Source: a virus. Taken from it: a stretch of 23,932 nt of DNA. Each line of letters opens with the position of its first letter. The stretch's first letter is position 1. Below, piece after piece: positions 604-23,713 of the stretch. The stretch is taken from positions 1-23,932 of the IMG/VR virus record IMGVR_UViG_3300009183_000365; one strand, written 5' to 3'. The position numbers and the translations under genes are program-made. The notes under the pieces are model-generated. The model was not told where the DNA came from, did no database searches, and worked only from the letters and a program-made list of their open reading frames with translations.

Positions 604-753
604 ATGTTACAAGACAATGTCTACAGATTAGTCTTGCTTCTTATGTACATTGGCTTTATATTTGCCGTTTACTATAGTTCAATCTTCCAGTCATTAATAG
701 TAATAGCAACTCTCATAGCCGTAACACATATAGCATACAAACTCATAAAATGA
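604..753 (+). CDS. 49-aa two-helix membrane protein
   Basis: A short ORF fills the space between the 'EQAKEM' gene and the primase. It starts at ATG 604, one base after the previous stop, and its TGA (751-753) overlaps the primase ATG (750-752) as ATGA. The protein MLQDNVYRLVLLLMYIGFIF... has two hydrophobic segments, about residues 8-24 and 27-45, and ends IAYKLIK, so it is probably a membrane hairpin. The exact packing between two real genes with coupled start and stop supports translation. Function is unknown; no holin or toxin signature is visible beyond size and hydrophobicity. Confidence 0.65.
   Translation: MLQDNVYRLVLLLMYIGFIFAVYYSSIFQSLIVIATLIAVTHIAYKLIK
633..664 (+). promoter_or_regulatory. 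Possible internal Bacteroidota-type promoter ahead of the primase gene
   Basis: CTTG (633-636) is followed after 20 nt by TATATTTG (657-664). This is the same pair and spacing as the intergenic promoter at 12113-12144 on the other strand. It lies inside the 49-aa ORF, about 85 bp before the primase start, and could give extra transcription of the replication genes. Because the site is coding and AT-rich, chance is a real alternative. Confidence 0.35.
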
Positions 754-2492
754 ACGCAGATAAATTAATTAAAATAGGAATAGACCTTAGAAATAAATGG
801 AGCGGAGAAGTTAAGACTACCTGTCCTAAGTGTGCCCACCAAAGGAAGAAGAAGAATGATCCATCCTTAGGCGTTAATATAGACGATGGGGTATGGAAGT
901 GTCACCACTGTGGTTGGAGTGGCTCTGTGAATCAGTATGTGCGTCCAGAAAGCCGTCCGTTAGTTAAGACTGAGGGCATCTTCTCCTATTTCACAAAAAG
1001 GGGGATTACATCTGAGACCGTACTTCATTTTAAAATTAGCGAGGGGGCTGAGTGGATGCCTCAAGACCAGAAGGAGCATAAAGTAATTTGTTTCAATTAC
1101 TTTCTTGAGGATGATCTAATTAATATTAAGTTCAAGACCTCGGACAAAATGTTCAAGATGGTTAAGGATGCGATGAAGATTCCTTATAACATCGACTCCG
1201 TCAAGAATCAAAACTATGTAATCATCTCAGAAGGGGAGGAAGAATGTATGGTGTGGCACCAGTGTGGGTACCATTCCGTAGTATCTGTACCCAATGGGGC
1301 TAGTAAGAATAATAATAATCTTGAGTGGTTGGATCGTGTGTACGATATGTTTGAGGGTAAGATTATTTACTTGGCTACTGATAACGATGAGCCAGGACGG
1401 AAATTGTCTGAGGACTTAGCTCGAAGATTTGATGCCTCAGATATTCGCATCATTCGATTCCCAGAAGGACAGAAGGATGCCAATGATTGCTTAAAAGCCT
1501 ATGGCCCTGACTTTGTCAAGAGACTTTATGCGGATGCAGAACATTTACCAGTAGCTGAGATTTCCTCGGCATCTGATTATATGTCCTTGATTGAGTCCTA
1601 CCATGATAGTGGTTACCCTATTGGAGCCCTAGTAGATATGTCTGAGACCGATGGGCACCTATCTTGGAATAGAGGCGAGTTGGTTGTAGTGACAGGTATT
1701 CCCGGTAGTGGTAAGAGTACTTGGCTAGACTTTATGTTCATCCGCCTAGCCCACCTTAAGGGTTGGAAGTTTGGCTTATTTAGTCCCGAGAACATCGCCC
1801 CACTTAAGATTACACGTATGAGTGAGCAATTGATGGGGAAGGGGATGAAACAAATGAATAAAACAGAACTTCAAACCGCTATCTCCATCATTGATAAGAA
1901 CTTCTGGTTCTACAATGTAGAGGTAATGGAAGATTACTCCCTAAGTGCCCTACTAAAAATTGCTGCGACTATGGTCAAAAGAAATGGGATAGACTGCTTA
2001 TGCCTAGACCCATTCAACTATATCGAGCCCGAATCTGGAGACGAGAGCAGTCACGAAAAGATTGGTAACTTATTACGTAAATTGAAGCAGTTTGCCATTA
2101 AGTATAATGTTTGTGTGACTCTAGTAGCACACCCAAGAAAGATGGATAAGACATCAGCTGGGTATAATGTACCCCGTTTGTATGATATCTCTGGCTCACA
2201 CCACTTCTTTAACGTTCCCGATGTAGGTATTGCTGTACATAGAACATTCCAAAATGGTCAGAAGGATCCAGTAGAAGTACACGTGCAGAAAATTAAGTAC
2301 CACTTCCGAGGTAAGTTAGGTCGTGTCGATTATGAGTTCGACAGAGAATCAGGTCAGTATAGCGAGGATGGAAAGTTCAAGAGTTTATTAAACATAAAAT
2401 ATGAAAACGAAACGAATACATCTGATTTGTTCAGCACATCACAAGCGTGGGGAGAAGGTAAGGGAATTCAACCTGAGTCCTTTTCTCTATAA
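750..2492 (+). CDS. Bifunctional DNA primase-helicase (T7 gp4-like)
   Basis: At 580 aa it has the size and order of a T7 gp4-type replication protein, which would unwind the fork and prime lagging-strand synthesis. An N-terminal zinc ribbon has Cys25/28 and Cys51/54 (CPKC, CHHCGW). The TOPRIM primase core shows the acidic motif EGEEE (161-165) and DND (211-213). The RecA-like hexameric helicase carries Walker A GIPGSGKST (316-324), Walker B LCLD (417-420), a sensor-like VTLVAHPRK (457-464) and an arginine-containing KYHFRGKLGR near residue 520. The last ~30 residues look disordered. The gene overlaps the upstream 49-aa ORF by 4 nt and its 3' end overlaps the next gene by 92 nt. It sits two genes before the DNA polymerase, as expected for a replication module. 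Confidence 0.95.
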   Translation: MNADKLIKIGIDLRNKWSGEVKTTCPKCAHQRKKKNDPSLGVNIDDGVWKCHHCGWSGSVNQYVRPESRPLVKTEGIFSYFTKRGITSETVLHFKISEGAEWMPQDQKEHKVICFNYFLEDDLINIKFKTSDKMFKMVKDAMKIPYNIDSVKNQNYVIISEGEEECMVWHQCGYHSVVSVPNGASKNNNNLEWLDRVYDMFEGKIIYLATDNDEPGRKLSEDLARRFDASDIRIIRFPEGQKDANDCLKAYGPDFVKRLYADAEHLPVAEISSASDYMSLIESYHDSGYPIGALVDMSETDGHLSWNRGELVVVTGIPGSGKSTWLDFMFIRLAHLKGWKFGLFSPENIAPLKITRMSEQLMGKGMKQMNKTELQTAISIIDKNFWFYNVEVMEDYSLSALLKIAATMVKRNGIDCLCLDPFNYIEPESGDESSHEKIGNLLRKLKQFAIKYNVCVTLVAHPRKMDKTSAGYNVPRLYDISGSHHFFNVPDVGIAVHRTFQNGQKDPVEVHVQKIKYHFRGKLGRVDYEFDRESGQYSEDGKFKSLLNIKYENETNTSDLFSTSQAWGEGKGIQPESFSL

Positions 2493-2643
2493 TAAAACCC
2501 AAAAGAAAACAGTACGCTATCGTGACTATGAAGTTAATTTAATCAGCAAAGGTTGGATTGATGTCGATGGAGTATTTTATTTAGAATTAAATACTAGCGA
2601 AGGTATTTTATATATAACCGATTACACTTATAGTTTATTATGA
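2401..2643 (+). CDS. 80-aa unknown protein between primase-helicase and DNA polymerase
   Basis: The ORF starts at ATG 2401 inside the primase-helicase gene (92-nt overlap) and ends with TGA overlapping the polymerase ATG (ATGA, 2640-2643). No later ATG, GTG or TTG in frame gives a sensible protein, so the long overlap seems real. The second half (YRDYEVNLISKGWIDVDGVFYLEL) is hydrophobic and aromatic with a beta-rich look and a short acidic stretch; the N-terminus is basic and has a Cys and several His. I recognise no family. Its position between two fork enzymes suggests an accessory replication factor, but that is inferred from context only. Confidence 0.65.
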   Translation: MKTKRIHLICSAHHKRGEKVREFNLSPFLYNKTQKKTVRYRDYEVNLISKGWIDVDGVFYLELNTSEGILYITDYTYSLL

Positions 2644-4562
2644 TAAAGATATACGATATAGAAACATTTAGTAACTGTTTTACTTACACAGATTACGACC
2701 CTAAGACAAAAGAAATTAACACTTTTGTTATATCAGCATTTAGAGATGAGCAGGTAGAATTTCGCCAGTACCTAGACAGCATTAAGAAGGCTGGTATGGT
2801 AGGCTTTAACAATATTTTCTTTGACTGGCCCGTAATAAATCATATATGGAATATGTCACGAGTGACAGGAGAACAGATATATGCCTTTGCTCAGTCTGTC
2901 ATTGAGGATTCTGAGCGTAAAAGTGTGCCTCAAACGATCCACCAGCTTGACCTGTTCTTACTAAACCACTACGATAACAAGGCACGCTCAACTTCTTTGA
3001 AAGCACTAGAGGTGGCACTAGGGTGGAATGATGTACAAGATATGCCATACCACCACACAGAAAAATTAGACAAAAATAAATTGGAATTTGTTTTAGACTA
3101 TAATAAAAATGATGTACTTTTTACAGCCAAATTTTATGAGATGTGTGCTGAAAAAATTGCATTAAGAAAACAGATTAATAAGAAATACAAATTGCACGTA
3201 CTGAATAAAAGTGATGTCGTAATTGGTGAGACTATTTTCCTTAAATATTTATCCCAAGAGATGGATATGAGCATAGGAGATTTAAAGCAGATACGTGGCA
3301 AGAAAACGGATGTGGTCATTAATGATATCATTTTTGATTACGTTCAGTTTGATACCCAAGAGTTAAACGATTTACTTAGTTTGATGAGGGATACCAAGTC
3401 AAGTTCACAGTTCCTAAAGAATTTTATTGAATCAATTGATACAAAGAAAAATACCAATGAGTTATATGACAAATTTAAAAAGAATAATATTGATGTTAAG
3501 AAGACTGCCCAGCAGAAGAAGTCTTTCTCCTTTTCGGTATACTACGGTGGAGTTTGCTTGGATTACGGGGTTGGTGGCATTCACGGTTGCGTTATTCCTG
3601 GGGTCTATAGTGCTACTAATACACATGAAATTTTAGATATTGATGTAAAGTCCTACTACCCTAACCTATTCATTCAGAATCGTTTACACCCAAAGCAAAT
3701 GGATCAAGATACCTTTGTCCAAGTGTACTCTGATATCTTTCAGCAGAGGGTTCAAGCACAGAAGGAGGGCGATAAGTTAACTGCCGATGCATTGAAGTTA
3801 TCATTGAATGGCCTCTTTGGTAAGACGGGCTCAGATGTTTCTTGTTTCTACGATCCTCATGTCTTTTATGCGGTCACAGTAAATGGTCAGCTCCTTATCT
3901 CTATGCTTCTGGAGAAGTTGTACTCCAATGGATGTCAAATCCTTCAGGTAAACACGGATGGTGTTACTATATTTCACGATAAGAATATCCGAGGCAAGGT
4001 TGAACAGATTTGTAAGGAGTGGGAAGCAGTTACCAAGTTAACACTTGAGTACGCCAACTACAGCAAGATGATTATCCGAGATGTAAACAATTACATTGCT
4101 GTGGGTACGGATGGCAAGATAAAGGAAAAAGGTGCCTTTGAAACTAAGAAGGATTGGCACAAGGATAACTCGTATATGGTTGTCCCCTTGGCTGTGCGTG
4201 AGTACCTAGTAAACAATGTTCCTGTTGAGAAAACTTTGAGTGAGCACAAGAATATCTTAGATTTCTGTGGTCGATACAAGGCTAGTCCTAACTGGCACGT
4301 AGAGTACGCATACCTTGATGGTCTCAGAGAGAAGAGATTAAACTTCGGTAAGATCTATCGCTACATCCCTGTTCATAAGGGTGGCACCTCCTTGAAATTA
4401 AATAAGGATGGACGAGAACACCACCTGTGTGAGGGCTCTATGACTGTACCATTCAATCAAATCATAGATTTCGATTGGAATAATATTAACTTCCCTTTCT
4501 TTGTAAACGAATGTCAGAAATTGATCCAGACTATACAGCCATTACAAATGACCCTGCTATAA
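2640..4562 (+). CDS. Family B DNA polymerase with 3'-5' exonuclease domain
   Basis: This 640-aa protein begins directly with Exo I, YDIETF (Asp6, Glu8). Exo II is at GFNNIFFDWPVI (55-66, Asp62) and Exo III at YNKNDVLFT (154-162, Asp158). The polymerase half shows motif A DVKSYYPN (Asp335 to Asn342), motif B K-LSL-N-GLF-G (386-394) and motif C VNTDGV (437-442). In motif C the usual DTD is NTD, so only Asp440 is kept there. There is no N-terminal extension and no long insertion, making it a compact viral polymerase. It follows the 80-aa gene with a 4-nt overlap and is co-transcribed with the primase-helicase, so it is the likely replicative polymerase. Protein-primed initiation cannot be decided from this sequence. 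Confidence 0.93.
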   Translation: MIKIYDIETFSNCFTYTDYDPKTKEINTFVISAFRDEQVEFRQYLDSIKKAGMVGFNNIFFDWPVINHIWNMSRVTGEQIYAFAQSVIEDSERKSVPQTIHQLDLFLLNHYDNKARSTSLKALEVALGWNDVQDMPYHHTEKLDKNKLEFVLDYNKNDVLFTAKFYEMCAEKIALRKQINKKYKLHVLNKSDVVIGETIFLKYLSQEMDMSIGDLKQIRGKKTDVVINDIIFDYVQFDTQELNDLLSLMRDTKSSSQFLKNFIESIDTKKNTNELYDKFKKNNIDVKKTAQQKKSFSFSVYYGGVCLDYGVGGIHGCVIPGVYSATNTHEILDIDVKSYYPNLFIQNRLHPKQMDQDTFVQVYSDIFQQRVQAQKEGDKLTADALKLSLNGLFGKTGSDVSCFYDPHVFYAVTVNGQLLISMLLEKLYSNGCQILQVNTDGVTIFHDKNIRGKVEQICKEWEAVTKLTLEYANYSKMIIRDVNNYIAVGTDGKIKEKGAFETKKDWHKDNSYMVVPLAVREYLVNNVPVEKTLSEHKNILDFCGRYKASPNWHVEYAYLDGLREKRLNFGKIYRYIPVHKGGTSLKLNKDGREHHLCEGSMTVPFNQIIDFDWNNINFPFFVNECQKLIQTIQPLQMTLL

Positions 4563-4864
4563 ATTTTGATATGCCAGATTTGCGAATTGATATTCGTGTA
4601 ATACTTCTGGCGTTAAGGTTTGAGTTACTTCATCAGAAGATTTACTTTGCTCCAAAGTTTCATCTGCAGTACTGCCATGTCATTGTACCATCCCTACGCT
4701 ACAAGTTTAGTACGTGGTACGATAATGGTTTTATGGTACTTAAGGTTGGGCAAAACACTACACGCCTACCATGTTTCTTGGAGGAGGACATGGTATCTGA
4801 GAGGACGATAGATTTGATGTGTGCTGTACTTGAGCACAGACAGATTAACGCTGGAATTCTATAA
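4511..4864 (+). CDS. 117-aa unknown protein at the end of the replication operon
   Basis: The ORF overlaps the polymerase 3' end by 52 nt if it starts at ATG 4511. An alternative ATG at 4571, just after the polymerase stop, gives 97 aa (MPDLRIDIRVILLAL...). I cannot choose between them firmly. The protein has a hydrophobic-amphipathic stretch (IDIRVILLALRFELL), then an aromatic, beta-like region with VIVPSLRYKF and DNGFMVLKVG, and an acidic end (LEEDMVSERTIDLM). No family is recognised. It is the last gene of the plus-strand operon, and its TAA (4862-4864) overlaps the stop of the terminase gene on the opposite strand. Confidence 0.7.
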   Translation: MSEIDPDYTAITNDPAINFDMPDLRIDIRVILLALRFELLHQKIYFAPKFHLQYCHVIVPSLRYKFSTWYDNGFMVLKVGQNTTRLPCFLEEDMVSERTIDLMCAVLEHRQINAGIL

Positions 4865-6673
4865 CTTGATTTGTTTCCATACCCTTTGGTATCTTCCATT
4901 CACAAGTTCAAGCATAGGGATCTCCTTGACTGTGGGAGTGTACTTTTCTACATTCTTTTTGTGACGCTCTACAATATTTCTGTGGAGCAACTCACAGGCT
5001 ACAACACCATCAATTAAATCCGTGTTCTCTACCAAATAATTCTTGGCTTCCTCTATAAATTCTAGGAACCATACCTCATCGCTATGCTTATTTAAGTACT
5101 CAATTAAGTACGTATTACCTCTCTCAGAGGTGTGGTCATTCTTATAGTATCCGTAGGAGCCATCACTCTTGGAAAAGTTCTTACCTAGGTATATTGGTTT
5201 CTTGGCTAGTAGGCCTAGTTTACCCAACTGCTTGTACTTATCCAGTACAACACCACCTCGGTTAATCTCGATCATTGCCACAGCATTGTTGTAGTACTCC
5301 TGTAGCATAATCATATTGTCTACGATCTGATCAGGATCTGAGTCCCGTTCTGCGTAGTGGGCCACGTACCGATTTAAATCCAAATCCTTGATTACAATTG
5401 CTTGTTTAGAACCATCGCCCATATTCTTACTGATGAATGGAATCGGGTCAATCCCTGCGATGTAAGTGTGCCCTGGCTCGGGGCTGTGTAAGAACTTCAT
5501 CTTACTTTTATTATCGGGCCTTCTTTGAATAATACCTTCTACATCACGATATAAAATGGACGAGTCAATGGCTGGCTTGGATGTCAGGATAATTCTTTCC
5601 TGTGTGTTCAACTTGTCAATGATATGCTTAGGCAAGTTACCCTCTGCACTGAATGAGAATACTTCCTGTATCTCTAAGGGGTACTGCTTGATAAATGAGT
5701 TCAAGAATGATTTGTCCTCAATCTTATCCAACTTCTCACGGGTTTTCATAATCCAATCAGTCGCTGCCTTCTCATCACTCCATCCATTGGGACAGAAGTT
5801 TAGAATCTTTCCAGTTTCCTTACCATTCTCATCCAACTCTGGAGCCTCCATGATTCCCTTATTGCCGGGAAGAAAGAGGGTTAGAATATTTAAGTTCTCT
5901 GCATTGTTCCACAGGTTCATAGCCAACTTCTGACCTACTGATGTCGATTCACCAGCACTACCCCCAATGATGATGGGAGCAATCTTTACGAAGCCCGATT
6001 TAACACTTGCCTGTGCAGATTTGTATACCTGATCCGCCTTAGGGTGTAGCATACTTTCATCGATGAATACGTGAGCTGCACGATATGCTTCAAAGGCTGT
6101 GGGTGTGTCAACTGTTTCCTTGGTCACAATCTGACTATCTAAGCCTGAAATAGAGCCCGTGGTTTGATTCTTTTGCCCTAGGTGAAGGTAACCCTGCTGA
6201 CGAGTAGAGATAACACCAGGGCGAATGTAATCGTCTAAGTGGTCAAATACGATACGAGTTTTATTCTTAAATAGTTCCTCTAATCTCTGTTTATCTGCAC
6301 TGGTTATCAGTGTTGTAGAACCCGGCTTGGTTAATGCAATCCATACAGGAATGATTCCTCCAAATACGAGAGATAGACCTACCTCACGTCTCTTGGTAAT
6401 AAACAAATCATTATTAGTTCTCTTGGCTTCCTCGTATCCCTCGTAGATCAACTCATCTATATCTCGCCAAATCGGTCTTTTTTTGTAACCTCTGGCATCT
6501 TTTACGGTTGCTTGGGTTAGTGCAAAGTAGTGTGCTCCTGTCAATCCGAAACGACCTGTGTTCCAGTATTCCAATTCCTTACCCCACCATAGATCCTTTT
6601 CCTTGGCTGTGGCAGTAGGACTGAGCCCATGTTTGGCCCACCACTCATCGTACTCAAACTTACTCTTTTTCAT
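4859..6673 (-). CDS. terL: Terminase large subunit (ATPase-nuclease packaging motor)
   Basis: This 604-aa protein has the two-domain layout of a large terminase, which cuts concatemers and pumps DNA into the prohead. In the N-terminal ATPase the P-loop is ITKRREVGLSL: Lys94 opens the motif and the usual GKS is GLS (99-101), resembling the deviant lambda gpA P-loop. Walker B is HVFIDE (201-206, Asp205/Glu206), followed by the coupling-type segment IIIGGSAGES (235-243). The RNase H-like nuclease has the acidic triad Asp409 (AGID), Glu469 (MIEINRGG) and Asp555 (LIDGV). Start ATG 6673 overlaps the stop of the upstream small-terminase candidate (ATGA). It is the last gene of its operon and ends tail-to-tail with the replication operon. 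Confidence 0.94.
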   Translation of the reverse strand: MKKSKFEYDEWWAKHGLSPTATAKEKDLWWGKELEYWNTGRFGLTGAHYFALTQATVKDARGYKKRPIWRDIDELIYEGYEEAKRTNNDLFITKRREVGLSLVFGGIIPVWIALTKPGSTTLITSADKQRLEELFKNKTRIVFDHLDDYIRPGVISTRQQGYLHLGQKNQTTGSISGLDSQIVTKETVDTPTAFEAYRAAHVFIDESMLHPKADQVYKSAQASVKSGFVKIAPIIIGGSAGESTSVGQKLAMNLWNNAENLNILTLFLPGNKGIMEAPELDENGKETGKILNFCPNGWSDEKAATDWIMKTREKLDKIEDKSFLNSFIKQYPLEIQEVFSFSAEGNLPKHIIDKLNTQERIILTSKPAIDSSILYRDVEGIIQRRPDNKSKMKFLHSPEPGHTYIAGIDPIPFISKNMGDGSKQAIVIKDLDLNRYVAHYAERDSDPDQIVDNMIMLQEYYNNAVAMIEINRGGVVLDKYKQLGKLGLLAKKPIYLGKNFSKSDGSYGYYKNDHTSERGNTYLIEYLNKHSDEVWFLEFIEEAKNYLVENTDLIDGVVACELLHRNIVERHKKNVEKYTPTVKEIPMLELVNGRYQRVWKQIKL

Positions 6674-6993
6674 TTCTTACCTGAGACCCGATCCATAAAG
6701 GATACGTTGTCTTCTACGACCTCTTCCTGTGGATATGCCTCCATCTTGGCTAACTTAAGACTCTTGTTAATCTTATCGCCTGCTTGCAGTAATTGAAATA
6801 AACCTTTTTGATAAGGGTCGTCAAGGTCTAAGGTCTTATCCCTAACCCCGTCCATTAACTGCTTAGACGCTGAGACTAGCGTAGAATAGAAATCTTTTGC
6901 AGGATCGGAATCTTGCAAGCGAAGTCTTTCTATGGCATCGGCCTCAGATAACCTATTTTCTTTTAGGAATTTCGTAATCTTTTCTAAGCTCAT
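6670..6993 (-). CDS. Small terminase subunit candidate (107 aa)
   Basis: I choose ATG 6993 (MSLEKITKFLKENRLSEADA...). A longer reading from 7074 would add a basic, low-quality stretch that only shadows the neighbouring gene. The protein is helical and charged: a first helical region (about 1-28), a middle SDPAKDFYSTLVSASKQLMDG segment and a helix LQAGDKINKSLKLAKM, with an acidic tail. Its place directly before terL, translationally coupled by ATGA, and its size fit a terS that recognises DNA and stimulates TerL. No clear helix-turn-helix can be called by eye, so the assignment rests mainly on synteny. Confidence 0.55.
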   Translation of the reverse strand: MSLEKITKFLKENRLSEADAIERLRLQDSDPAKDFYSTLVSASKQLMDGVRDKTLDLDDPYQKGLFQLLQAGDKINKSLKLAKMEAYPQEEVVEDNVSFMDRVSGKK

Positions 6994-7763: not shown

Positions 7764-8196
7764 TTGTAAATTCTTCAGGACTTACAAATATACATTTTTG
7801 TTTTGGAACACGAAAGAAATAATCTGTACCCTTTCTGTCGGCTGTATTGATGTAAACCTTTTGTTTGTAATCATTATGGAATATCACACTGGAGTGGCAG
7901 ATAATGGCAGCATGGGTCTCCTTACAGATAACTACATACCAAAAATTATCCCACTTCTTCTTGCGATCCAGGAAGGAAACGGAATCGAACTGAAAAGTAT
8001 CCATAGAAGTCCATGGTCTCTTACTCTTCATTTCTACCTCCCAATTGTACTCAATACCATCTTTTTCGGTGACAAGATCTATACCATATATGTCACAATT
8101 ATTCGAAACATTGTGACACTTACTCTTAAGAAAGGCAGTAAGTAGTTCCCTACCTAGGGCATCATTATCGTTAAAAGATTCTTGGTTGAACTTCAT
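7756..8196 (-). CDS. PD-(D/E)XK nuclease-like protein
   Basis: The chosen start is ATG 8196, which overlaps the stop of the spanin gene as ATGA; a longer frame to 8256 lies wholly inside that gene and is rejected. The 146-aa product has a helical N-terminus (ALGRELLTAFLKSK), then YGIDLVTEKDGIEYNWEVEMKSKRPW. Asp40, Glu55 and Lys57 reproduce the D-(x)n-E-x-K core of the PD-(D/E)XK fold, with a Glu (position 17) in the preceding helix as often seen. Further strands (WYVVICKETHAAIIC) would complete the sheet. A role in DNA processing near packaging, or in host DNA breakdown, is inferred. The active-site match is by eye only. Confidence 0.6.
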   Translation of the reverse strand: MKFNQESFNDNDALGRELLTAFLKSKCHNVSNNCDIYGIDLVTEKDGIEYNWEVEMKSKRPWTSMDTFQFDSVSFLDRKKKWDNFWYVVICKETHAAIICHSSVIFHNDYKQKVYINTADRKGTDYFFRVPKQKCIFVSPEEFTNG

Positions 8197-8597
8197 TTTC
8201 TTAAATATAAAGCGAGCACCATTCCAATAATGAATGCGCCTGCAATATACCACCAATTAATTATTTCATTATTAACTATTTTTCCAGCGACTTTAACTTC
8301 ATAACGAATTGTATCTCTGTATGTTATGGTGTCTGGCTTCACTGTTACTCCAAAGAAAGTGCCTTTCTTATAGATAATTAATCGCTTAGTTTCGATAAAG
8401 GTATCGCACTCAATAATAAATGAGTCCCTATACTCAGGAACTGGAACTTGAATTTCTTTGATGATAGTATCTCTTACAATTACCGTATCAGTTTCGACTA
8501 AATACGGATATTTGCGTATCAATCTGTCATATCTCTGCTTCGGAGACCCACACGAAATTACCGTAATGCACATTGCGATAAATATTATTTGTTTCAT
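8193..8597 (-). CDS. Putative unimolecular spanin (u-spanin), lipoprotein with C-terminal TM
   Basis: The 134-aa protein has a lipoprotein signal peptide: basic start, hydrophobic core IIFIAMCITV and lipobox VISC with Cys16. The periplasmic part is beta-rich with recurring DT(V/I) and RDTI patterns (37-46, 89-97). One C-terminal transmembrane helix (about 114-132) is followed by RK. An outer-membrane lipid anchor plus an inner-membrane helix in a single chain is the defining topology of u-spanins such as phage T1 gp11, which fuse the two membranes at the last step of lysis. It is first in the minus-strand operon leading to terL, with a TAnnTTTG box just upstream. Without homology evidence it could be another tethered lipoprotein. 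Confidence 0.65.
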   Translation of the reverse strand: MKQIIFIAMCITVISCGSPKQRYDRLIRKYPYLVETDTVIVRDTIIKEIQVPVPEYRDSFIIECDTFIETKRLIIYKKGTFFGVTVKPDTITYRDTIRYEVKVAGKIVNNEIINWWYIAGAFIIGMVLALYLRK

Positions 8598-8609
8598 AGC
8601 ACAAAGATA
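8597..8609 (-). promoter_or_regulatory. Promoter -7 box of the spanin-to-terL operon
   Basis: On the minus strand TATCTTTG (8609-8602) matches the Bacteroidota -7 consensus TAnnTTTG exactly, and the identical octamer recurs at 9597-9590. Only four bases separate it from the spanin ATG, so the message would be leaderless or nearly so. No -33 TTG is present at the expected distance; instead a repeated 16-bp element begins at 8615, which may be an activator site. Confidence 0.55.
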
Positions 8610-8614
8610 AGTTA

Positions 8615-8663
8615 TAAACTTATAGGTTTACTATAAAGTATAAATTGTAAACGTATAGGTTAA
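8615..8663. repeat. Two 16-bp direct repeats 33 bp apart, operator-like
   Basis: TAAACTTATAGGTTTA (8615-8630) and TAAACGTATAGGTTAA (8648-8663) agree at 14 of 16 positions. The first is itself a dyad (TAAAC...GTTTA). The spacing of 33 bp is about three helical turns, so bound proteins would lie on the same face. They sit immediately upstream of the spanin -7 box, where a -33 element would be expected. A regulator-binding role is inferred. Confidence 0.5.
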
Positions 8664-8724
8664 AAGCCCCCCGATTAATTCTTTGTTTACTAGCTTTTTT
8701 GCTAATATAAAAATAATAACCATT

Positions 8725-8823
8725 TCAAGTTCTCTCCTTGACGATGTCGGAGTCCAAGAAACATTTCACCCATTTTGCAGGGTCGTTATCCGATTTGAGT
8801 TTCCTCCAGATAACACAAGTCAA
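8725..8823 (-). CDS. Possible 32-aa ORF or remnant, TTG start
   Basis: In the intergenic region one minus-strand frame reads as protein-like sequence: ...CVIWRKLKSDNDPAKWVKCF, then LDSDIVKERT and TGA at 8725. An in-frame TAA lies upstream at 8842-8844; there is no ATG, and the only plausible start is TTG 8823. The mixture of Trp, Asp-Asn-Asp-Pro and charged residues is unlike the AT-rich surroundings. It may be a tiny gene, the tail of a decayed gene, or chance. No neighbour is coupled to it. Confidence 0.25.
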   Translation of the reverse strand: MTCVIWRKLKSDNDPAKWVKCFLDSDIVKERT

Positions 8824-8846
8824 TTGTTTTCGGTGGGCTTTTTAGT

Positions 8847-8870
8847 AAAAGGGGTAGCCTAAACCACCCC
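8847..8870 (-). terminator. Weak hairpin terminator candidate
   Basis: On the minus strand GGGGTGGTTTAGGCTACCCC (8870-8851) folds into a GC-rich stem (GGGGT/ACCCC plus one more GC pair beyond a mismatch) followed by TTTT (8850-8847). The U-tract is short. It lies about 30 nt downstream of a promoter-like pair at 8902-8933 and would also catch transcripts from the DnaA-like gene. Confidence 0.4.
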
Positions 8871-8901
8871 CAATACCTTAAACAAATAAATATGAACAGT
8901 G

Positions 8902-8933
8902 CAAACTTATGCAAAAAATCCTTAAGTGCCAAA
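8902..8933 (-). promoter_or_regulatory. Candidate Bacteroidota-type promoter in the intergenic region
   Basis: On the minus strand TTTG (8933-8930) precedes TAAGTTTG (8909-8902) with a 20-nt spacer, a full match to TTTG-N19/20-TAnnTTTG. No clear gene follows. A transcript starting near 8896 would reach the hairpin at 8870-8847 after about 50 nt, or read on through the possible 32-aa ORF. Confidence 0.4.
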
Positions 8934-8945
8934 TTTGTGATAAAT

Positions 8946-9099
8946 AACCAATATAATGTGCAATTTGTGCTATTTTTGACGCATTTAACCATTATAATGT
9001 GCATTAAAGCACCCAAAAGGGTATGAAAATGTGCCATATAAGACACTTTATATGCGTTCGGGTATAATTTGTAGGATTTATCCATCATTATGTGCATTT
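8946..9099. repeat. Three iteron-like 20-bp direct repeats
   Basis: AACCAATATAATGTGCAATT (8946-8965), AACCATTATAATGTGCATTA (8987-9006) and ATCCATCATTATGTGCATTT (9080-9099) share the core ATnATGTGCAnT. The first two agree at 17 of 20 positions and the last two at 16 of 20. Start-to-start distances are 41 and 93 bp. Related half-sites (TTTGTGC, ATGTGCCAT) lie between them. The array lies next to a gene for a DnaA domain IV-like protein, so these may be its binding sites, an origin, or an autoregulatory region. Confidence 0.55.
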
Positions 9100-9130
9100 A
9101 CATACACTAATGCGGTAAATTTCCGAATTG

Positions 9131-9160
9131 TGTCCAGTTAATTTACTAAAAAACTGGACA
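9131..9160. repeat. 9-bp perfect inverted repeat across a stop codon
   Basis: TGTCCAGTT (9131-9139) and AACTGGACA (9152-9160) are exact inverted copies separated by 12 nt. The stop codon of the DnaA-like gene (9140-9138) lies within the left arm and adjoining base. No U-tract follows on either strand, so it is not a standard intrinsic terminator. It could protect the mRNA 3' end, terminate weakly, or be a protein-binding dyad. Confidence 0.45.
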
Positions 9161-9581
9161 TTGTCCTCTTGATCTTATCGTATTTTAACGCCACCTGCTT
9201 ATCGTACTTGATTAAATCTGTCGCCTTGGTGATTGCATTCTCAACTGTGGATCTGTCTCGCTCTATAACCAGACTAATTTCAGAAACCTTCATACCTAAC
9301 TCGGTCTTACAGGCGAAACAGAATAGGTGACGGGCATACAACTTCTCCTTGATTCTGCATTGTTCATGGATTTGATCTGGAGTCATGCTGAATGCTAGGC
9401 ATACAGAACGCATGGCGTGTTCCCACTTATCCTTCTGATTTCTTACACTTACTTTGGGGGAGAGGATCTCTTCTCTTAACTTCTCTACTTGTTTTTTGTG
9501 AGCTAACCGCTCCTCAGTCAACTTGGCTTTCAACCTCTTAACTTCTTGTTTGAGGTTGTGTATTACTTGATACTCGTTCAT
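9138..9581 (-). CDS. Coiled coil plus DnaA domain IV-like DNA-binding protein
   Basis: I start at ATG 9581 (MNEYQVIHNL...); an upstream TTG at 9620 overlaps the promoter and is rejected. Residues 5-40 form a charged coiled coil (KQEVKRLKAKLTEERLAHKK). Residues ~53-124 match DnaA domain IV: helix AMRSVCLAFSMTPDQI, then ARHLFCFACKTELGMKVSEI, then the signature IERDRSTVENAITKA, equivalent to GRDHSTV in DnaA. There is no AAA+ ATPase domain, so it cannot be a full initiator. It could bind repeats next door as a phage replication or copy-control factor, antagonise or recruit host DnaA, or act as a transcription factor. It forms a single-gene unit with its own promoter. Confidence 0.75.
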   Translation of the reverse strand: MNEYQVIHNLKQEVKRLKAKLTEERLAHKKQVEKLREEILSPKVSVRNQKDKWEHAMRSVCLAFSMTPDQIHEQCRIKEKLYARHLFCFACKTELGMKVSEISLVIERDRSTVENAITKATDLIKYDKQVALKYDKIKRTMSSFLVN

Positions 9582-9589
9582 AGGGAGGG

Positions 9590-9621
9590 CAAAGATAATC
9601 TGAGCCCCAATGAGAAACAAA
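9590..9621 (-). promoter_or_regulatory. Promoter of the DnaA-like gene
   Basis: On the minus strand TTTG (9621-9618) lies 20 nt before TATCTTTG (9597-9590), a full Bacteroidota-type promoter. It begins two bases after the stop codon of the upstream small basic gene and places the ATG (9581) eight bases after the -7 box, which also settles the start choice. Confidence 0.65.
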
Positions 9622-10446: not shown

Positions 10447-10650
10447 TTAGTTACCGAAAATAAATGGTTTCTTTGCCATTTTCTTGGCAGCGGTCTTCTT
10501 AGCGAACATAGCATCTTCTTTCTTTGCAACCTTTTTACTTTCGGTTTTTTCGTGCTTTACCATAGCTGCTTTAGAAGCGTACTTCTCCATACCTCCGTGC
10601 TGAGAAATCTTTGATTTAGCAGCGGTTTTTTTTATAGGTTTTTTCATCAT
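10447..10650 (-). CDS. 67-aa Lys/Ala-rich histone-like small protein
   Basis: MMKKPIKKTAAKSKISQHGG begins a low-complexity basic protein rich in Lys, Ala and Met, with YASKAAMVKHEKTESKKVAK and repeated KK-(T/M)-A-AKK / AKK motifs near the end. It ends one base before the holin candidate. Composition resembles the tails of bacterial and phage histone H1-like proteins, but low-complexity Lys/Ala sequence is a poor guide to function. It may be a virion or nucleoid-associated component. Confidence 0.65.
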   Translation of the reverse strand: MMKKPIKKTAAKSKISQHGGMEKYASKAAMVKHEKTESKKVAKKEDAMFAKKTAAKKMAKKPFIFGN

Positions 10651-10659
10651 GATTATTAT

Positions 10660-10953
10660 TTAATTACACTTCCATCTTCTACGAGCCTGTCTCAATCTTG
10701 AATTGGGATCTGAGGCCGCCTTGGGAAAATTTGCCATTTGACCGGCACTACGAGCACAAAATGATTTGCGTCTCTTAGCATCTGCACTACCTGCTTTAAC
10801 CTTACCAGTTACAGCAGTTTTTAACTTTGAACCTGGGTTCGCCTTACGATACGCAGCAACCCCCTTAGCCGTCATACCTGCTCCACTCTTGGTGGGGAGG
10901 TAATTAGCATTCTTACCTTTAGTTGTTTTCGGTATAGTTTTATCCTTCGGCAT
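10660..10953 (-). CDS. DUF6321-like basic protein
   Basis: I use ATG 10953 (MPKDKTIPKTTKGKNANYLP...), which overlaps the upstream gene by 14 nt. The core GMTAKGVAAYRKANPGSKLK, then TAVTGKVKAGSADAKRRKSF, CARSAGQM and the end SRLRQARRRWKCN matches from memory the small family DUF6321, found in phages and also reported in large eukaryotic viruses. The order Gly-Met-Thr-Ala-Lys-Gly, Asn-Pro-Gly-Ser-Lys-Leu, RRKSFCARS and ARRRWKC is characteristic. It is highly basic, with two Cys (in FCARS and WKC) that may pair or bind metal. Molecular function is unknown. Confidence 0.75.
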   Translation of the reverse strand: MPKDKTIPKTTKGKNANYLPTKSGAGMTAKGVAAYRKANPGSKLKTAVTGKVKAGSADAKRRKSFCARSAGQMANFPKAASDPNSRLRQARRRWKCN

Positions 10954-12144: not shown

Positions 12145-15100
12145 TTAACGGTTTTTAAGAAGTTCTATCTCAGCCCTTAAAGCCTCGATCATTGTTTGTT
12201 GTTCTTTCATTGCTTCTACCAATAGAGGGATAACTTTGGTGTAAGCCAAGTTCTTATATCCATCTTCTTGAGTAGTAACCGCTTCTGGAAGTACCGCCTC
12301 AACATCTTGAGCAATAAGACCTACATCATGTGTGCCTACGTGCTCACCTGAGTTCCAATCAAACTCTACACCACGTAGAGATTTAATCTTTTCTACAGGA
12401 GTAGTGATAAGAGTGAGGTTATCTTTAAGTCTAGAATCTGAAGGCGTAACAACTGCATAGTCAAAGATTACTTGGTTTGTACCTCTTGGAACATAGAACA
12501 TTCTTGAGTCTGTACTGTTTTCTGCAATACGTCTAAACTCAATGTCTTGACCTCCTGCATCTCCAGTAAGACGTATCTTAAATGATTTCCAACTAGAATC
12601 TGCTTGCCCCCTCATTAAGAAGTAAGTCAAAGGATCTTGGTTATACCCTACGTTAGAGTGAATTTCAACACCCGTTCCATTACTTCCAGCAACAGTAGCT
12701 ACTTGACCTATTTGATTTACTGGACTTCTCCAATCACCCCAAGTACCATTCCAACCAGTTCTATAAGCCATATTTCTGTATGACCCAGCAGAATTGCCTG
12801 AATTTTCAGGGAAGTACATTTGCCAAAGAGCACCCCCACTAACTCCATAAGATAATGCAGCACCATAATCATAATGATTACTAGGTCTATTTGACCCACT
12901 GTGTGCACTTACTGAAGAAGCAATTAGTTGTCCACTAACAAAATAAGTATTCCAGTTATCTGAAGTAATAGTTCCGTATGTACTTAATTGGGTAGCACTA
13001 GTTGCAGTAGCGGCACTACCTGTTGTATTTTGATTCCAAGTAGGAATATTACCTGAATGATAAAAGGTATAACCATCACTAGTTATTACACTTCCCCACA
13101 ATCGAATTTGTCTTCCTAATCCAGCACTGGTTTGTGCTCCAACAATATTAAGACCAGAAGCAAAAACACCAGAACCTATTTTACCATCATTACTATCTGT
13201 TTCAGCAGCACTAGAAAATTTAATCCAGGCACCATTACTTGAAATAATATTACTACTAAATGTAGCACCTCTTCCTGTAACTGTAGCTAAAGTATCAGTT
13301 TCTGTATAGCCAGTTATATACCCAGAGTTATTTGTAAACTGAGAAATATTCATACTGGTCAAAGAACCAGCAGTAGTTGCAGATCCTGCACTACCTGCTG
13401 TAGTAGCATAACTTACTGACTGAGACCCAATGTTACCTGCATGAACTACTGCATTACCTTGAATGTTAAGAGCAACAAAGTTAGAAGTGCTATTTGTTTG
13501 TAAATAATAAGTAGTGTCATTATTCATATACATAACCCCACCAATAGTCTTTCTAAGATCCCAACTTCCCCAAGTATTTCCCAAAAATCCGTAATTACTT
13601 CCATCACCATAAATTTGAAATGCAAATCCTCCTCCAGATTTTTGTCCTAGAATTCCAACATCAAAATTATTATCTAAAGCCCTAACAATTAAGTTTCTAG
13701 TGTTATACGTACTAAGAATAGGACCACTATACATAGTCATCTCACTTACATTATAAATACCAGTATTGTTTTTATTCAAAGAACCATACTGCCACATAGT
13801 ACTACCACAGTAGATACCATCAGGATGCCAAGAAGCAGAACCTACACCACCTACATTACTATTACTTCTATACCCATAAGATTTATAGTAACCTGCAACT
13901 TCCATATCTCCTGAAGTAGAGTTAAGCGCAGCAATAGGAGCATATGATTCTCTTCCCCAAGTAAACCCTCTGGTTGCATCTCCATCATTCATTTGAGCCT
14001 TTATAGAGTAGTCCGTAACAGGTCCATATTGATACAATGCACCTACACCCATACTAATCTTATATGCAGAAGAACCATTCCAGAATCTTAAACCATTTCC
14101 TACTCCTGCAGTTACATCATAATTACTATTAATATTACTTCCATTAGGAGCAGAGCCTGCTGTGGTTGCATATGTTGCAGTGGCTGCATTACCTGAGATA
14201 CTAGCACTTGATGTAATATAACCACTTGGGTTTGTAGCATTGTAAGGAGTAAAGCCTAATGCTGTAGTAACGTTACCTGAGTTAATACCTGTAATCCATC
14301 CACCATAGTTTCCTAGGTCATTTGTAAACTGAGACAAAGCAGTAGGACGAGAACTTACGTTAGTCCATGCTACTGCATTTGCTGTACCTGCTGTTGTTGC
14401 GTAACTTACTGATTGAGACCCAATGTTTCCTGTATTAATTGCAGATGCAATTGGTTGAGCCCAAGAAGAATAGTTAGAAGAGTCAAGAACAGTTGCTTCA
14501 GTACCAGCACCGTATGCATTTTTGTGACAATACAATGTTCCATTATACCATCTAAATTGCCAGCCGTATGAGTTATTGTGGAATCCAGATGTGTTAGAGT
14601 CCGCATTAATCATTAAAGTAACACCACCATTACTTCCAGAACCAAATTCAATACCTTGCCATCCATTACGAGACCCTAACATTTGCCAAGAACCATATGA
14701 TCCATTGTTTGGATAAATATGAGCTCCGTTAAGACCACTATATAATCCATAGTATCCATTCAAGTGTACCCAAGAACTAAATCTTCCATAATCAGAACCA
14801 CCCTGTTGAAATTCAAAACCATTTGCTAAACGCAGAGTTGTAAATTGTGCAGTAGGAGAATTAGCCGTAAAGTCAAGATATGTTCCATTCCAATACATAC
14901 CCCTTCTTCCACTCCAAGAATTATCAGAAGGGAGTGACCAGAAACCATTATTTTCTCCAGCTAGATATGCTCCATCAATGAGCATACCCATTTGCCCAGC
15001 ATTTGGTAATCCATCGCCAAATACTATCTCTCCTCCGTTTACGGTAAAACCTCCCCATCTTGAGCCAGGAAGACCTACTCCATACCAACCGCCACCTTTT

Positions 15101-22000: not shown

Positions 22001-23713
22001 AGTATAGTCGTAACCAATTATTGTTTTGTATGCAGGATCTGAAGCTGAAGCAGCAGCAATAGCATAAGTATTTTCATTAGTTGGGCTAGCATCACTAGTA
22101 ACTACTAATTTATTTGCAGGTGATGTAGTACCTATTCCTACATAACCTGCGGTGTTAATCCGCATTGCTTCAGTAGATGCAGGAGAAAAGATAATATTTG
22201 CAGGATAAGATCCTGTATTAATAGAATAGGTAGATAGAGTTAGTGTTGCTTCAGTAGTAGATAGTTGACTGTAATTTGAATTTGCACTAGCATTTTTATT
22301 TCTAATTGTTCCTATTACTTCTAATGCTGAAGATGGACTACTTGTACCAATACCAACATTACCCCCATATCCAGCATTAAAAAATGTATCATCTCCATAG
22401 TAAGATCCTATTTGAGAACGTAAAATACCATCTGTGTAAACTTTTATTCTACCCCCAGCAGTTCCACTATAATCTATAACAGCTACATTATATGAACCGT
22501 TTTGTGTTTTTACTGTAAATGTATCTTCAATTGTAGTAGCTTGATTTACATATAATGTTTCATTGATATATGCTGTTCCATTGACATGAAGTTTATAACT
22601 TGGACTACTAGTTCCAATACCTATATTTCCACTTGATTTTACAGTCAAGAGTGCATTAGAATACTGAGCAGAACTTACATCATTAGTAGTACCTGTTCTA
22701 GCAATTACATACCCCCCATCAAAATCAGTATAAGGAGTACCTGCAAACCAAGTAGATGCTACACCGCTCATGTGAACACCTGCTCCACGATAATTATTGT
22801 GGGAGTTTAACCATAATCTTGCAGCAGTATAGTTAACACTACCATCCGCTTGAACAGTTAAATCAGGTCCTACTGTAATAGAAGTATTTGTTGTTGCTCC
22901 TCTTCCAGTTACAGAAGCTAAAGTATCAGTCTCAGTGTATCCTGTAATATATCCACTATTATTTGTAAATTGGGATATATTCATACTACTCAAAGAACCA
23001 GCAGATCCAGTAGTATTTTGATTCCATGTTGGTATATTACCCGCATGATAAATGGTATAACCATTCCATTGAATAGATTTATCATTACCATTTAAAAAGA
23101 ACACAACAGCATTTCCACTGCTATCAAACATTCTAAGATTTAACTTAGAACCATTAGCGTTTGAACCTGCATTATAATGTGGATAATGATTACCATTAGC
23201 ATCATATGCTAAAAAGTAGTGATGTCCATTAAATTGATTACCTGTACTAGACAAAGTAATATTTGTACTTGTACTAGCACCACGACCTGTAACTGAAGCT
23301 AAGGTATCGGTCTCAGAATAAGAAGTAATATACCCTGGACCATTAGTTAATTGATTAAGATTAGTTAAGTTTCCAGTATGCCATACATCTGCATAAGAAC
23401 TGTAAGCACTAGCAGATCCAAATGTTTGTTGGTAAATACGCATTCCAATACCACTCTTAAGGAACATAACAAGATTGTCACTCCCCCCAGAAGAATCAGG
23501 ATAAGAACGTAAATGTAAATAATCAGCATAGGGAGCACTATTATTATTTGCCCAAGAAGTAAATCCAAATTGAAGATAACTAGCATTAGTCTCTGAAGGA
23601 GAGATAATTCTATTATCGTAACTAGCTAATTGTCCTGTTTGGTTATTTACGTAACCGGCTAGAGTAGCACTACCAGCAGTACCAGCGTAAGCTACACTCT
23701 GAGACCCAATGTT
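13420..23713 (-). repeat. Dispersed codon-identical repeat encoding N-I-G-S-Q
   Basis: The plus-strand 14-mer TGAGACCCAATGTT occurs at 13421-13434, 14414-14427, 15221-15234, 16379-16392 and 23700-23713, across both fibre genes, always encoding NIGSQ in the same codons (last base of the Gln codon is A in one). A near-copy, CTGAGACCCAATCT, lies at 19247-19260 inside the first S74 domain. Surrounding module sequence varies much more. Confidence 0.7.

Follow-up and report, generated by a model that had tools for sequence, protein, structure and literature searches.

A repeat array and a gene for a free-standing DnaA domain IV lie side by side in a phage fragment and are probably not a matched pair

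The repeats found beside a phage gene for a free-standing DnaA domain IV (dnaA4, a name coined here) are probably not matched to it as an origin is to its initiator, because the array occurs without the gene and the gene occurs without the repeats, that is, the two are separable in both directions. We consider it on balance probable, from comparison of the sequences, that the repeats are a portable, phage-specific, putative protein-binding array and not the private target of the dnaA4 product.

The DNA analysed, here called the window, is a fragment from a virus record, 23.9 kb in length. Its main features are listed in Table 1; its remaining minus-strand genes are small late-region genes and genes for two very large tail-fibre-like proteins. 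A search of the large terminase subunit (TerL) against INPHARED gave 0 matches, as did Pfam for the spanin-like gene, and an Rfam scan of the whole window returned one sub-threshold snoRNA-like chance match only. Promoter-like TTG-N-TAnnTTTG sites were found 8 times against 3.3 expected, and this excess suggests that the host is probably a member of the Bacteroidota; TAnnTTTG is the sigma-A -7 consensus of Flavobacterium (PMC9723704). Such a box also stands immediately 5' of the ATG of the spanin-like gene.

Table 1 Features of the window and of the intergenic cassette around the repeats
Feature	Position	Strand	Remarks
Primase-helicase gene	750-2492	+	
DNA polymerase gene	2640-4562	+	
Terminase large subunit (TerL) gene	4859-6673	-	
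94-aa gene adjoining TerL	6670-6954		Conserved together with TerL
Lipoprotein-like (spanin-like) gene	8193..8597	-	Downstream of the cassette; lipobox-like start, C-terminal hydrophobic segment
182-nt insertion/deletion element	8662..8843	-	AAAAGCCCACCGA/TCGGTGGGCTTTT ends (window copy: one mismatch)
Intrinsic-terminator-like hairpin	8847..8871	-	GGGGTGG-TTTAGG-CTACCCC, then T4; conserved in relatives
Promoter-like site P1	8902..8933	-	TTTG-N20-TAAGTTTG; directly downstream of the array
Array copy 2	8945..8964	-	TTGCACATTATATTGGTTA; NGCACA site starts at 8963
Middle NGCACA site	8966..8972	-	TAGCACA; distances 32 bp (copy 1) and 9 bp (copy 2)
Array copy 1	8986..9005	-	TGCACATTATAATGGTTAA; NGCACA site starts at 9004
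Shared module	9048..9068	-	ATTATACCCGAACGCATATAA; the second phage type has a near-identical module
Third repeat of the sequence-only reading	9079..9098	-	Separate conserved module, GCAyATAATGATGGATA
Inverted repeat, 3' end of dnaA4	9131..9160		TGTCCAGTT-N12-AACTGGACA
dnaA4 (147 aa), free-standing DnaA domain IV	9138..9581	-	Pfam, AlphaFold2 model, Foldseek
Predicted dnaA4 promoter	9590..9620	-	TTGTTTCTCATTGGGGCTCAGATTATCTTTG; Bacteroidota sigma-A form TTG-N-TAnnTTTG

The DnaA-like protein and the neighbouring repeats

The sequence-only reading had credited the product with a DnaA DNA-binding signature, a coiled coil and no ATPase, and these points were supported, the coiled coil as a coiled-coil-like helix. 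The dnaA4 product matched Pfam PF08299 (Bac_DnaA_C) over residues 57-119 (E=3.2e-9; 37.1 bits against a curated cut-off of 31.5), the same profile was matched by 30 of 30 dnaA4 homologues at E<=0.001, and no Pfam match to an AAA+ ATPase domain III was found in the 147 aa. An AlphaFold2 run on seven near-identical sequences reached a pLDDT of 62, which was unusable and made the fold search meaningless, and the run was repeated with 30 sequences. The resulting model (pLDDT 86.8, pTM 0.63) has a single, coiled-coil-like helix at residues 3-40 followed by a helical domain, and Foldseek placed it with E. coli DnaA domain IV bound to a DnaA box (1j1v) and the M. tuberculosis DnaA-DBD bound to box DNA (3pvp), at TMt 0.87-0.88 and an rmsd of 1.4 A. 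As modelled, the fold is confirmed to be that of DnaA domain IV, which covers approximately residues 52-126 and is preceded by an N-terminal helix of about 38 residues. A PDB sequence search with a seven-member dnaA4 profile gave chance matches only, and comparison of the product with INPHARED found no close relative of the N-terminal-helix family.

The product has the fold, the Bac_DnaA_C profile and the RD-x-ST motif of helix 5 in common with DnaA domain IV of E. coli and M. tuberculosis; it differs from full DnaA in having no AAA+ domain and a long N-terminal helix instead. Base contacts in DnaA are made by E. coli positions 399, 423, 432-435 and 438-439 (PMC5043019). The signature of this base-contacting helix 5 in the dnaA4 product is RDRSTV, replacing RDHTTV, and the His434 position of DnaA is Arg in the window group, where the adjacent sites read TTGCACA rather than TTATNCACA; homologues in a second phage type, described below, carry His at that position (Tyr in one). 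A dsDNA binder without an ATPase cannot open an origin in the manner of DnaA, and we infer that the dnaA4 product would bind dsDNA in trans, as a regulator of transcription or replication or as an occupant of host DnaA boxes.

Judged by profile matches, DnaA-like phage proteins that stand alone have been catalogued before: of the 30 members of the family, 29 matched phrog_16091, annotated as of unknown function, and one matched phrog_27829, a DnaA-like replication initiation protein. Among the literature on phage DnaA domain IV proteins, GafA was the only functional precedent found. GafA activates the gene transfer agent of R. capsulatus and was reported to bind the promoter of its structural gene cluster (PMC6363796). 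This phage-derived regulator has a DnaA-DBD-like helix-turn-helix, and the dnaA4 product has a DnaA-DBD-like domain too; where GafA has a sigma-like C-terminal region, the dnaA4 product has an N-terminal helix instead, and Pfam gave no match to a sigma-like C-terminal domain in its 147 aa. By analogy, the dnaA4 product could regulate transcription as GafA does.

Three 20-bp repeats lie 40-195 bp beyond the dnaA4 stop codon, within the intergenic stretch 8598-9137. They are real: their best three-copy score of 35/40 was reached by none of 300 Markov shuffles (mean 28.1, maximum 31), and TGCACA on either strand occurs three times in the 540-bp intergenic stretch against 0.32 expected (p ~0.005). 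As a set of three, they stood only in part. Copies 1 and 2, spaced 41 bp, belong to a conserved array; the third copy comes from another module, in which the window's GCACATAATGATGG aligns with GCATATAATGATGG in relatives and CACA is not conserved. The conserved spacing is completed by TAGCACA at 8972, which the earlier list lacked. The array thus defined consists of three NGCACA sites, 31-32 and 9 bp apart, a geometry constant across both phage types, with a site register of -35/-34, -3 and +6 held in nearly all of 25 arrays; in relatives it sits in a noncoding element of about 220 bp with several conserved modules. It was also correct that the repeats differ from the canonical DnaA box: the neighbouring sites are TTGCACA and not TTATNCACA, with TNCACA in common, and no canonical box lies near the repeats, the sole TTATNCACA of the window being at 23180. 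A structured RNA was rejected, the fold amounting to only -4.8 kcal/mol over 227 columns, and this lack of a notable fold fits a DNA site.

Distribution of gene and array

When IMG/VR was scanned, the array core was found in 28 stretches; three of these, in coding-like sequence (L044, L054, L062), were set aside as chance. Six of the remaining 25 arrays adjoin dnaA4. Another 12 stand in an NrdJ/spanin-like context without it (L068 among them, cut off before the slot that would hold the gene), two (L045, L048) have a GroES-like gene as their neighbour, and five belong to an unrelated phage type with another terminase, where the array is reversed relative to the genes. An adjacent dnaA4 is therefore missing from 19 of 25 arrays, although many records are fragments in which a distant homologue could be missed. 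The 69-kb relative G001 carries the array and no dnaA4-family homologue, its DnaA_C protein of 111 aa being of a different family. Searches of INPHARED and PLSDB for the array gave no real match, and 257 Gb of bacterial and archaeal genomes gave only six scattered, chance-like matches in unrelated taxa. Noncoding modules are common to both phage lineages in rearranged order.

Conservation of the array beside the gene, proposed in the sequence-only reading as a check, held in the close group (the window and L001-L006), where the six relatives, 89-97% identical, retain dnaA4 and repeats and all seven loci have both; it failed across the survey as a whole. Relatives found through TerL vary at the dnaA4 slot, which is flanked by the g9623 homologue on one side and the spanin-like gene on the other. 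In ten others of these relatives the slot holds the class II reductase gene NrdJ, mostly with a MazG-like gene before it, and in seven of the ten a promoter motif of the same GGGnCTCAGATTA(T)ATTTG type precedes these genes. The array is kept in some NrdJ-type loci (L009, L013) and missing from others. Among the loci collected through TerL, without regard to the array, all six that have dnaA4 (window included) carry it against 5 of 13 loci without dnaA4 (Fisher p=0.018, a value confounded by close relatedness), and this association leaves room for a functional link between dnaA4 and the array.

A wider search for the family that joins the N-terminal helix to a DnaA domain IV found more than 100 loci, a group of candidate phage replication or transcription regulators. 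Homologues from the second phage type are 36-40% identical to the dnaA4 product and have the same N-terminal helix. All 28 second-type records tested encode one, and a TTGCACA pair occurs anywhere in the record in only eight; the relatives in the other 20 keep the protein and lack the pair. Identical recognition helices are found without the pair (L101, L104) and with it (L105, L123). At the position of the array, several pair-negative genomes have TTGCAY arrays of divergent sequence and others carry nothing of the kind, and no convincing iterons were seen beside the homologue. The family gene lies beside a DnaB-type helicase gene where examined in this type, as in G027, the genome read in detail, in which the array is about 6 kb away; in some second-type phages homologue and array share a record at about 6-7 kb. 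The homologue could assist the adjacent helicase there.

The phage-encoded origin-binding or copy-control pair that the sequence-only reading had put forward is not supported by these two sets of counts: relatives with the protein and no repeats, which that reading had named as grounds for giving the pair up, do occur in the second phage type. Repeats beside a gene for a DNA-binding protein are not by themselves evidence of a pair, and here comparative data separated the two.

Readings of the array

The preferred reading is that the repeats would form a portable, phage-specific protein-binding array within a mosaic intergenic cassette. The slot upstream takes cargo that can be exchanged: dnaA4 in some loci, and in others a class II ribonucleotide reductase gene usually joined by a MazG-like gene, with one type of promoter in front of both. 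The array would be read cooperatively by a phage or host DNA-binding protein, which in the window lineage would most likely modulate P1 just downstream. A site read by a regulator is the best fit for this lineage because the array lies directly upstream of P1, which is followed by the terminator-like hairpin; P1 is also kept in the array-less relatives L010, L014 and L026. Arrays without a P1-like promoter (L045, L048), together with the reversed genes of the second type, argue against a purely promoter-linked role. As to what the array does, a regulatory site is a serious if tentative candidate; because the array occurs irrespective of orientation, we also keep an origin, which is doubtful, and a recombination linker or passenger, which is rather unlikely, while a target of the DnaA-IV protein is unlikely.

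The same noncoding array, with its spacing kept, in unrelated phages with differing genes suggests a signal usable by several phages, and its reader would tell whether phages repurposed the code of DnaA domain IV or exploit a host factor. More specifically, the 32/9-bp array, which unrelated freshwater phages share, could have one kind of reader in all of them (a host protein or a phage DnaA-IV protein); phages would then have turned a DnaA-box-like code into a regulatory signal whose movement does not depend on the reader. As a joint claim, we hold this to be speculative. The array differs from REPIN/RAYT systems, which have high copy number and a Y1 transposase: TTGCACA arrays number one in G001 and none in G002, and no transposase match was found among the window proteins scanned.

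The array may instead be a replication origin read by another initiator, which we regard as unlikely; the initiator could be host DnaA or a different protein of the phage, for example a short DnaA_C product of its early region. Its independence of gene orientation and context, its iteron-like fixed spacing near whole helical turns, its single occurrence in G001 and the short DnaA_C proteins encoded elsewhere by several array-bearing relatives all favour an origin, and the origins of lambda O and of iteron plasmids (PMC5043065) likewise have direct repeats at near-whole-helical-turn spacing in a noncoding region. However, most near-complete genomes of the second type and about half of the TerL relatives lack the array, canonical DnaA boxes are missing, and GC skew has no extremum at the array in any of three sequences, namely the window, G001 and the unidirectional genome G062. 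The cumulative skew check thus showed no inflection at the repeats, although it is a weak test because skew follows gene orientation in these phages. Iterons, moreover, accompany their initiator, whereas the protein and repeats of the window separate freely: tandem repeats with fixed spacing are present, and dnaA4 fails as the co-encoded initiator (19/25, 20/28).

We give similarly little credence to the array and its modules being recombination linkers or passenger DNA for accessory-gene swaps, with no bound protein. Mosaic modules do surround variable cargo (dnaA4, MazG/NrdJ, the GIY-YIG-like gene of L009 and the 182-nt element, present or absent), yet the fixed 31-32/9-bp spacing and near-invariant NGCACA sites exceed what a linker needs.

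It now appears improbable that the repeats next to dnaA4 are bound by its product as a private system for an origin or for copy control. The seven close loci, which are closely related, and the second-type records that hold both homologue and array speak for it, and an altered code is conceivable, since TNCACA is common to the repeats and the DnaA box and Arg takes the place of His434 in the protein; the arrays that adjoin no such gene, G001 with only its different DnaA_C protein, the second-type records with the same recognition helix whether or not the pair is present, and the lack of a skew inflection at the repeats all speak against it.

Repeats lie near the terminase genes at lambda cosB, and the cassette is placed in the late/packaging region, but a terminase small subunit with its packaging site was rejected as highly improbable: TerL relatives more than 90% identical lack dnaA4, the 94-aa gene adjoining TerL is a better small-subunit candidate, and arrays also occur with unrelated TerL.

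Other features of the cassette and its relatives

The 182-nt element is present in five of the seven close loci (absent from L001 and L005) and also occurs elsewhere in a 67-kb relative at 72% identity. Its consensus fold of -36 kcal/mol includes four pairs with compensatory change and Rfam gave no match, and on covariation within the alignment it is a candidate phage noncoding structured RNA. A 23-codon ORF inside the element shows mostly synonymous changes among close loci, and for this reason it may encode a small peptide. The neighbouring terminator-like hairpin, within about 60 nt of the P1 start, has changes on both arms across relatives, and an inverted repeat resembling that at the 3' end of dnaA4 also follows NrdJ in L009 and L017.

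The recurrent GGGnCTCAGATTA motif stands between -33 and -7 of the dnaA4 promoter and also 5' of the MazG/NrdJ genes in relatives. In the promoters of dnaA4 and the MazG/NrdJ genes, the -33 and -7 boxes enclose a recurrent motif GGG(T/G/A)CTCAGATTA (window 9590-9620, minus strand; L009:1332, L010:767, L014:3812, L016:3778, L017:2639, L026:2954, L037:14462 and 14969), and its recurrence suggests a possible phage-wide operator.

Small noncoding modules found in both phage types include a hairpin, GGTTAATTACACCGATTTTGGGGTAKTTTAACC, and a palindrome-like sequence, TACCGCTCGGTA; they lie at about 4572-4610 in L009 and in intergenic positions in L104, L108, L110 and L126, and TACCGCTCGGTA also occurs in L048 and L037. 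A GIY-YIG-like gene occupies L009:3825-4376 on the opposite strand, in the intergenic stretch just before the array. The NrdJ-type reductase at L026:3393-6206 has 937 aa against about 618, with an intein-like insertion (CFTGDTRLLT ... VVAHN C), and in L017 the primase-helicase gene is interrupted by about 0.9 kb (L017:12039-12952) around the codons for window residues 317-319. Additional short proteins of DnaA_C or DnaA_C-like type are encoded in the early region of G002 (L038:8627-9019, 10649-10918 and 12368-12643) and at L036:5478-5813 and L084:3470-3805, also early; these early-region genes have a serine recombinase gene nearby or immediately precede the primase.
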